Assembly: GCF_041381155.1 (NCBI RefSeq)
Contig: NC_091138.1
Span: 17,051,255-17,115,254 of the forward strand
Direction: 5' to 3'
DNA length: 64,000 nucleotides
Source: Argopecten irradians
Taxonomy: Eukaryota > Mollusca > Bivalvia > Pectinida > Pectinidae
In this document: piece by piece, positions 56,597 through 59,574 of the stretch
Layout: each line of letters begins with the position of its first letter
How positions within the stretch are numbered: the first letter of the stretch is position 1
The notes under the pieces: generated by a model
What the model saw: only the letters and a program-made list of their open reading frames with translations
Database searches by the model: none
Told to the model about the DNA's origin: nothing
Program-made: the position numbers and the translations under genes

Positions 56597-59574
56597 ATGG
56601 CTGCAATGTTGAAAAACGTGCGGCTTGCGCTCTCAGTTAACCGGCTATGCCTCAGAAGTCAGACGTGTAAACTTACGACAGCAGCTCTTTCACACAAATG
56701 TCATCGAAGGATATCACCAAATTCGCAGAGTCTCTTGTCTAACACGAAGGTGAAGTTCACTATCGGCAACCATGTCAAACAAAAGTTTGCTAGTGACGTT
56801 CTAACAATATTGCCTCCATCGGGGAAATAATGGGTTATATAATTACACAAGACTTGTTGTTCAGAAGCTTTAATTGTAATAATCTGAACCCATTTTTCAT
56901 CACATATTTTTCTCGCTGTAAGTCTGTGGACATTGTCTTTGACAGTGTCATTGCTTCATAGACACACTAGTACTTGGCGCCTGCCATTACAGACTGGTCA
57001 GCGATGACGATTATGGTGGATAAAATATTTTAATAAGCTTAGTTTATTAGGTTATCTGTACAGTAAAGATATGATTGAAATAGTGAATATGGTATTTGAT
57101 TGGTTTGATTATAATTTAGTTGCAACAAAATGTAGTCTATCTATCTACTAGAAAAAAAAAAAAAAATCATGATTTGACACTTAAGATTTTACATTTGATA
57201 ATATTTTCTCATCAGTTTCTCATTAGTCCAACATCAATGAAAAGCCTTATGGCTTGTAGTGATATATTTATTGTACTGTAGCTATAGTATTCACATTAGT
57301 GGTAAACAGTTAAAAACTTGTGATTGCTTAAATTCCTTAATGTAGTTATTGTCCTAGGTTTGGTTATTGTCCAGGCTAAGTAAAGAGCATTCGGCAGTCC
57401 AGAACAATTTGCAATTCAGACTAAGAATGCAAGTGTCTGGTTTATAGATCGTGAGGATCCACTGTAATTGCATGGCATTATAAAGTTCACTATTGTATTT
57501 GGTACCGATTGCATTGCAACTTATCGGTTTGAGTGTTGTCATTATCATTCATTTATTGCCATCTAGTCAAAACACTTTTATTGATATCTCTAAAGTGATC
57601 AGGTGGTTATAGCAATAATCCATTTAAGATTTAAAGGCTAATTTGAATATTCAACCATGCAAAATAAAAACAAAGTGAATGTTAAGCTGGTTTAAACTGT
57701 TAGATAGTACAGTAAAACATGAATATTACAAACCTTTGGGATCAACAATGCAAAATCACTTCATTTTAATTTTAAAATAATGTACCCGGTACACACATTG
57801 CAAACATCTTACAGGAACCTCAACAGACTCGCAGAGAATGGAAATTATTGCATTATAACCATGATGAATTTGTTAAGCATTTTATACTATACATAACCTG
57901 AAGATTGATGGATAATTTTAAAGGAAAGTCAAACTAAATCAGGTGGAATCCACTAATGTAAAGCAACAAACTTAAGTTAGGTAACATTCAAATTGAAATC
58001 AAATGTGTCTTATGCAATCAAATTAATTATTTTAGAAAAAGTGAGTCAATTTTTGAAATTTAAATGTAAAACTGCTTTAATGTAAATTTTTAATGCCCAA
58101 ATTTCATTGTCGTGATATGTTACAAAGGAATCATGACAAAATGGTTTTTTTACATTATATTCATAAACATATTTTGTGATAGTTCTGTGCCATTTGCCAC
58201 ATTGTTTATCTCCCCTCGTAGACAGTAACGTTATTCAAATGATACTACACTGTTCGGTTATGAACTAGTCTACATATATATATATGTACATAAGTAATTA
58301 GGATCGTCATCATCAGATTGGTATCCTATGATTTTCCCCCATTACTGCATTAGTGTTTTGCTATCCTTTTAGCAAAACTTTTTCAAATTCGTTTTAAAAT
58401 CTAAAATCATTCAATAATACAAGTGATCTATTTCTACATGTAATGCAGGTTATCTTTCTGCCATTTACCATTGTGATAATCTTTATGTGCATTAGTCATA
58501 GTTTAATTGTTGAAATATATTTCACAGATCGCTGTGCCAGTGAAGAGGTTTTGTGTATCCAGGATTTCTATTACGATAGAAGAAATTGAAGAAAGAGTGA
58601 TGAATGTTATCAAGGCACATGATACAATTAATGCAGAAAAGGTATTTACTTTTGTTTCACACTTATGCATTACAGGTGAATAGTTTGCCTTTGATCAGGA
58701 CATACGGCAGGATCGGTCCTCCTCTTACTTTGAAACTCATCGAAGACAGAATATTACTCACTCTCAAGCTCTATGATAAAATTAATCCAGAAAAGGTAAT
58801 GAAATGGTTTCAGACTTCATAAAATGACATCTTTAAAGCCATTTTGAGCTCTGCTAAATTAAATCAGTAACTTAGAAAGGTTCCAATTTTACAATGAATA
58901 GTTTGATTTTACAGAATATACTAGATACATTTGTATTAGTTTACCAATTCTCTATTACTTTTATCTTTAAACAACACTTAAAGACAAATTATAATGGATC
59001 ATATCTCCAGTTTGATGACCTTCTGTTTCTCATAAATGCATATTTTGTTTGCAGCTTCAACTAACTTCACATTTTATGAATGATCTTGGACTTGACAGTT
59101 TGGATCATGTGGAGATAGTTATGGCTATTGAAGATGAATTTGGTAAGTATCCGAAAGCAGCTAGTTCTATTTCTGCCAATAGTGCAAGTCCTTTCACTTT
59201 TTTCCAAAGAGTACTTCTCTATGTACTTTATTTTTACTTTCAAATTCGTCATAAAAGTAAAAAATCTTAACCCTACTTTTAATGTTTTTGTTGGGGTTAA
59301 AACTCTGGGGCCCTCTGGCTTATGAATTTCTAATCTGACTCTCAACTAGGCAAGTTAAAGAGAATATCTGTGTAACTACATAGTACATGTATATTGTTAC
59401 TAGAATTTGCCGAGGTTACTCACATATTTTATTTACCTCTGTATGCTGATTATCTCATATGTTCTTTTATATTCCCTTTTAGGTTTTGAAATTCCTGACA
59501 TTGATTCTGAAAGACTTCTAACGCCACAAGATTTAATCCGTTATGTGGCAGACAAAGAAGATATTTATGAATGA
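56597..59574 (+). CDS. NDUFAB1: Mitochondrial acyl carrier protein (complex I subunit), alternatively spliced
   Basis: Exon 1 is 56597-56749 (51 codons), then either exon 2a (58528-58641) or exon 2b (58676-58795), then exon 3 (59055-59142) and exon 4 (59483-59574, TGA). Phases 0, 0, 1 match. Isoform 2a has 148 aa and 2b 150 aa; the human precursor is 156. Exon 1 is rich in Arg, Lys, Ser and Leu without acidic residues, a mitochondrial presequence. The 4'-phosphopantetheine site is the Ser of [20 protein letters not shown] (Ser104 or Ser106). The C-terminus [10 protein letters not shown]…[10 protein letters not shown] is diagnostic. The protein carries acyl chains for mitochondrial fatty acid and lipoate synthesis, is a subunit of complex I, and binds LYR proteins of Fe-S and respiratory assembly. 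The donor of exon 1 (AAG|GTGAAG) is chosen because it is in phase; intron retention there would end at 56830. Confidence 0.93.
58528..58641 (+). CDS. NDUFAB1: Alternative exon 2a of the acyl carrier protein
   Basis: 38 codons, phase 0-0, acceptor TATTTCACAG, donor AAG|GTATTT. It encodes [14 protein letters not shown], then [18 protein letters not shown] and TINAEK, i.e. linker plus helix I. Over the helix region 10 of 24 residues match exon 2b. It begins with a divergent linker and has a more charged helix (EEIEER). The weaker donor (GTATTT) than that of 2b (GTAATG) may matter for choice. Confidence 0.85.
58676..58795 (+). CDS. NDUFAB1: Alternative exon 2b of the acyl carrier protein
   Basis: 40 codons, phase 0-0, acceptor TATGCATTACAG, donor AAG|GTAATG. 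It encodes [14 protein letters not shown], then [20 protein letters not shown] and KINPEK. This is the version closest to the vertebrate protein (PPLTL…DRVL…LKLYDKI.PEK). Its acceptor lies 34 nt after the donor of exon 2a. Confidence 0.9.

Follow-up and report, generated by a model that had tools for sequence, protein, structure and literature searches.

How does a gene come to carry two versions of one exon almost side by side, can a transcript take both of them, and what does the choice change in the protein? These questions are raised by the mitochondrial acyl carrier protein (mtACP/NDUFAB1) gene of the bay scallop Argopecten irradians. mtACP connects fatty-acid synthesis, Fe-S clusters, ribosome assembly, and complex I. 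The window, which is the whole 64-kb stretch of DNA that was analyzed, contains this gene on the plus strand with its coding part at 56597-59574, as established by scripted splicing (Table 1). The encoded protein has the acyl carrier domain (PF00550), the DSL phosphopantetheine serine, and the four-helix fold. The initial annotation had identified the gene as mitochondrial ACP, and this assignment is supported by the database isoforms, the domain match, and the best PDB matches, which are mitochondrial ACPs.

Table 1. Exons of the scallop mtACP gene and the gap between the alternative exons (positions are those of the window; the arrow marks the splice boundary)
Feature	Positions	Strand	Content
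Exon 1, coding part	56597..56749	+	51 codons, ending in phase 0; begins with the start codon and covers most of the mitochondrial presequence
Alternative exon 2a	58528..58641	+	114 nt, 38 codons; AG↓ATC ... AAG↓GTATTT; equals isoform X2; presequence end with cleavage-like site, then polar-stripe helix I
Gap	58642..58675	+	34 nt; carries 2a donor (GTATTT) and 2b acceptor (...TTACAG)
Alternative exon 2b	58676..58795	+	120 nt, 40 codons; AG↓GTG ... AAG↓GTAATG; equals isoform X1; presequence end with cleavage-like site, then hydrophobic-stripe helix I; type also in vertebrates
Exon 3, common to both forms	59055..59142	+	88 nt; loop 1, DSL phosphopantetheine serine, helix II
Exon 4, common to both forms, including stop	59483..59574	+	Helices III-IV, C-terminus

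Exons 2a and 2b are tandem homologous exons of equal phase that occupy the same place in the protein. Their coordinates, lengths, and 0-0 phase were exactly as first annotated, and the count of 10 residues common to both exons out of 24 in helix I was correct on the translations. The exon 1/2 and 2/3 junctions are in phase 0 and the exon 3/4 junction is in phase 1; the introns measure 1778, 34 (the gap between 2a and 2b), 259, and 340 nt. Exon 2a is open in its own frame and has stops in both other frames. The spliced products are 148 aa long with 2a and 150 aa long with 2b, and skipping of both exons would leave an in-frame product of 110 aa. In exon 3, the DLGLDSLD block is invariant in two protein alignments. 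Two tandem arrays were also noted. One, downstream of the gene at 61014-61769 (171-bp unit, 4.4 copies, 86% matches), sits within a stretch resembling a repeat element, and the other lies at 63065-63174 (38-bp unit, 2.9 copies, 98% matches).

Both products are represented in the protein database as models. The 2a product is identical over 148 aa (100%) to the protein named acyl carrier protein-like isoform X2 [Argopecten irradians] (P0001), and the 2b product agrees letter for letter with isoform X1 of the same species (P0005, 150 aa); exon 1 is identical in the two. X1/X2 pairs of the 2b and 2a types also occur in Pecten, Ylistrum, and Mizuhopecten. The presence of both spliced products in the database indicates that the exon pair is a real annotated feature, and chance or mis-annotation was rejected on this ground. 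A DNA search with 58500-58830 matched a single place in the 846 Mb assembly, which excludes a second close copy of the pair at that level of search. Acyl-carrier domains were found elsewhere in the assembly in open frames of 1677-2270 aa (L001-L008 on contigs C8, C3, and C11, several of them on C8), as expected for large multidomain synthases.

The gap between the two exons reads GTATTTACTTTTGTTTCACACTTATGCATTACAG. Reading through it leads into a TAG at 58681-58683, as had been predicted. A transcript in which 2a is joined to 2b would be in frame and open (188 aa), so the reading frame was rejected as the cause of exclusion. Efficient assembly in vitro requires donor and branch site to lie about 50 nt apart, and a distance of 52 nt has been estimated from the human B complex (PMC6692369). 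In human exon clusters, a distance from donor to branch point below 50 bp has been taken as potential steric interference, a situation found in 57 (9%) of them (PMC5740500). These minima are vertebrate values, the limit of about 50 nt coming from human work, and the host here is a mollusc. The whole gap is shorter than this limit, and any branch site within it would lie less than 50 nt from the 2a donor, which makes the joining of 2a to 2b unlikely by the human standard. With the 2a donor and the 2b acceptor so close together, U1 at the donor and U2 at the branch site would block each other, and hence each scallop mRNA would carry either 2a or 2b by steric exclusion. Profile scoring of the retrieved proteins found the two exons together in none of eight scallop proteins.

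The proposal that the gap forces a one-or-the-other choice is partly supported: in the scallop, 34 nt falls short of the human minimum, but exclusive use is not general. Using class profiles built from 66 hand-picked segments, 180 distinct proteins (the best 120 of 1053 matches plus the best 120 of 2173) were scored as 94 with 2b only, 49 with 2a only, and 37 with both, in a set picked by scallop likeness that is rich in insects and is neither a random nor an independent sample. When a fusion protein mis-scored as 2a (P0121) and a protein with 2a cut short (P0098) were set aside, 178 proteins from these best-match lists remained, of which 94 had 2b only, 48 had 2a only, and 36 had both. In all 36 of the latter, 2a stands ahead of 2b, matching the order in the scallop DNA. 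Their sources outside insects are seven gastropod entries, the clam Mya, and one ostracod; among insects they include mosquitoes, other flies, moths, butterflies, bees, wasps, beetles, mayflies, a planthopper, and a lacewing. Some of these proteins are numbered database isoforms and others are gene predictions.

These proteins suggest that 2a-2b joining seems possible in other lineages, presumably over a longer gap. Enforcement of the choice by a tight gap may have come later, on the scallop side. If a both-exon protein were cleaved at the 2b site, the mature protein would be the same as that from 2b alone, and joined transcripts would be harmless. Two proteins depart from the usual form: in a mayfly both-exon protein (P0048) the end of 2a is altered, and in the beetle protein P0098, 2a is shortened ahead of 2b. 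They raise the possibility that 2a contains an additional donor in certain lineages.

How old, then, is the exon pair? Tandem homologous exons of mtacp1 are mutually exclusive in two Drosophila species and in Anopheles, and the duplicated exons are preserved in Apis (PMC551531); the insect mtACP forms are described as strictly conserved across all insects studied in another report (PMC2241641). Both sources bear out the mention in the initial annotation of alternative mtACP isoforms in an insect. A tree was built from all 66 hand-picked helix-I segments, none identical and 26 columns long, comprising 15 mollusc 2a, 16 arthropod 2a (one from an ostracod), 15 mollusc 2b, 18 arthropod 2b, one fish, and one annelid segment. 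The unconstrained tree of these 66 segments and 26 columns contained the exact split between 2a and 2b with an ultrafast bootstrap of 100. A tree of separate duplications, the one alternative history compared, was 45 log units worse (AU p=0.0067, SH p=0.019). Within the same set, every arthropod 2a segment (16/16) is closest to a mollusc 2a; 11 of the 15 mollusc 2a segments are closest to an arthropod 2a and the other four to a 2b. A Cys at block position 16 is found in 7/15 mollusc 2a and 11/16 arthropod 2a segments and in no 2b.

On these 66 segments and 26 columns, scallop 2a is an ortholog of the insect a type and scallop 2b of the b type. The tree test favors an origin before the mollusc-arthropod split, in line with an earlier guess that the arrangement is of protostome age, and the switch was probably already present in the common ancestor of the two phyla. 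The tandem pair would then most likely derive from one exon duplication preceding that split. The fish and annelid segments group with 2b, which suggests that 2b probably came first and that 2a is a copy derived from it. The search for the paired exon elsewhere that had been suggested at the outset brought up both exon classes in molluscs and insects; the one annelid protein among those retrieved (Owenia, P0155) is of the 2b type. The protein boundary before exon 3 is similar in molluscs and arthropods. A search with exon 2a of Biomphalaria returned three proteins, all from Biomphalaria.

The consequences of the switch for the protein can be read at two levels. An R-x-(Y/F)↓(S/A/C/T)-like pattern is the cleavage motif of the mitochondrial processing protease. 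In the same 178 proteins, scored at a higher cut-off, a motif of this kind is found upstream of helix I in 57 of 84 2a segments and in 121 of 130 2b segments, compared with 5.3 and 7.2 expected from shuffles. Its presence in both classes suggests that each exon seems to provide its own mature N-terminus, protease cleavage being assumed. Each exon would thereby supply the last part of the presequence, including a separate R-x-(Y/F)↓(S/A)-like site, and then helix I. Helix I differs between the classes at block positions 7, 14, and 18, whose helical spacing places them on a single face. At position 14, 130/130 2b segments have L or Y and 84/84 2a segments have a polar residue; position 18 is L in 130/130 2b segments, and in 2a it is Ala in 59/84 and Ser in 10/84, while three 2a segments break the pattern with I or L. 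Pro occupies position 24 in 124/130 2b segments, and Ala does so in 68/84 2a segments.

By the ranges matched in the PDB, and assuming a gap-free alignment, positions 14 and 18 correspond to residues 9 and 13 of Escherichia coli ACP, which we take to be a surface Lys and Glu. Helix I is predicted in both isoforms (residues 68-81 with 2a and 70-82 with 2b), and the presequence is modeled with low confidence. The model of the 2a product has the ACP fold, with a target TM of 0.88-0.97 in the ten best PDB matches (rounding aside), and its matches include ACP chains of complex I at a target TM of about 0.9. The switch would thus give the mature protein a different N-terminus and alter helix I on one side, leaving the phosphopantetheine serine and helix II unchanged. 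The initial annotation had placed the swapped part at the partner-binding surfaces of ACP. This did not hold for the LYR contacts named in PMC8547962, which are made by acidic residues C-terminal to the modified serine and by the acyl-phosphopantetheine; the modified serine and these acidic residues are encoded in the shared exons 3-4.

Complex I offers a candidate for a difference in function. It contains two copies of ACP, of which the beta copy contacts, in addition to its LYR partner, several other subunits; in NDUFAB1-null human cells, yeast ACP restored growth but not complex I assembly (PMC8762328). Together, these observations indicate that features beyond the generic ACP surface matter in complex I. 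In the fly complex I structures 8ba0, 8esw, and 8esz, six ACP chains are of the 2b type (145.5 bits to the 2b query versus 117 to 2a), as are two chains in 8b9z (136.6 versus 114); in all of these entries, the modeled ACP sequence may simply be the annotated one. The examined text of PMC10036122 contains no discussion of ACP isoforms. Combining the 2b-type chains in fly complex I with the special needs of that complex, we hypothesize that 2b supplies the general form, including the ACP of complex I, and that 2a would provide a second form with other duties of mtACP.

A more far-reaching version of this division can be offered as a speculation, and a rather doubtful one. It supposes two pools of mtACP kept separate since the protostome ancestor, with 2b docking to complex I by means of its hydrophobic helix-I stripe and 2a, with its polar, bacterial-like stripe, escaping this capture to serve Fe-S assembly, ribosome assembly, or fatty-acid/lipoate synthesis. 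If it were true, one splice choice would divide ACP between respiration and cofactor synthesis.

Several other explanations were weighed against this account. Exclusive use of the exons might come from RNA pairing or from splicing regulators, the short gap being incidental, and the ratio of 2a to 2b needs setting by regulators whatever the mechanism of exclusion. Insects, moreover, use the pair exclusively (PMC551531). Such an origin is nevertheless unlikely in view of three results: the region 58480-58830 of the scallop folds locally no better than shuffled sequence (z=0.22, with 61 of 100 shuffles as good), so that unusual RNA structure at the exon pair was rejected; no Rfam family was matched in the 64-kb window at gathering scores, which rejects a known RNA family there; and the entire gap is below the reported minimum distance. 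As for the history of the pair, the exact split with its bootstrap of 100 and the AU test, the Cys at position 16 in the 2a exons of both phyla and in no 2b of the set, and the constant order in the both-exon proteins all speak against separate exon duplications in molluscs and insects that became alike by convergence. The alignment is short, though, and four of the 15 mollusc 2a segments lie closest to a 2b. Insect mtacp1 exons are given as lying between phase 1 introns (PMC551531), whereas the scallop exons are flanked by phase 0 junctions, a difference that may be one of convention or a real shift, and convergent views and independent exon duplications are mentioned for other clusters (PMC5740500). 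On balance, separate duplications appear very improbable.

The worth of 2a itself can also be doubted, since it could be a minor exon under weak constraint, its product lacking any separate function. Among four scallops, the identity to Argopecten is 29/38, 26/38, and 24/38 for 2a and 36/40, 34/40, and 35/40 for 2b, and this lower conservation counts against the importance of 2a. Exon 2a is also more variable than 2b across phyla in the 66-segment set, and it is 2b that appears in the fly complex I models. Against this explanation, 2a stays open in both molluscs and arthropods, keeps class-specific residues at positions 14 and 24, and yields a product with a predicted ACP fold; we consider it improbable as well.

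The preferred account is thus that the scallop carries one copy of a single ancient exon duplication, that the choice would be enforced there by steric exclusion, that it would change the N-terminus of the mature protein and helix I on one side, and that 2b and 2a may divide the tasks of mtACP between them; as a whole, we hold this account to be probable. The gene model, the two database isoforms, the two exon classes in two phyla, and the difference in the stripe are direct observations, whereas steric exclusion, protease cleavage, and the division of tasks are inferred. The insect pair is already in print. No report of the mtACP exon pair in molluscs was found in the open-licence PubMed Central literature, and, as far as that literature was searched, the new points are that molluscs have the pair with both of its exons homologous to the insect ones, that the gap measures 34 nt, that the both-exon proteins keep one order, and that the classes differ in the helix-I stripe. 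PMC551531 reports that no EST evidence for mtACP alternative splicing was found in vertebrates and nematodes, and human cells depend on their counterpart of mtACP for viability (PMC8762328). The switch is apparently older than the split of molluscs and arthropods, which implies that two forms of helix I are worth keeping, and deletion of a single exon would provide a simple genetic handle for separating the functions of mtACP.

Several known systems are close to the scallop gene. One is mtacp1 (ND-ACP) of insects, for whose mutually exclusive exons Ragone et al. 1999 is reportedly the reference. In Drosophila, Anopheles, and Apis, the same gene has tandem homologous exons that are used singly at the same place in the protein (PMC551531), and the exon classes group with scallop 2a and 2b. 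The scallop differs in its phase 0 junctions as against the phase 1 introns reported in insects, in its 34-nt gap, and in being a mollusc; a further difference is given by the both-exon proteins noted here in other lineages. Exons 4a and 4b of vertebrate OGDH are likewise exclusive exons of a gene for a mitochondrial enzyme, and their exclusion is enforced by a branch site near the first donor, at 25-41 nt in human (PMC7969005). OGDH is an unrelated gene, however, and its intron measures 118-131 nt in birds and mammals, compared with 34 nt for the entire scallop gap. The human steric-interference clusters resemble the scallop in a distance from donor to branch point of less than 50 bp, but their branch points are predicted, and the examined text of PMC5740500 includes no mtACP case. 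In Yarrowia, ACPM1 and ACPM2 also give one organism two mtACP variants, those of Yarrowia being at different places; unlike the scallop forms, they are two distinct homologues rather than exons of one gene, and both are found in complex I (PMC8762328).
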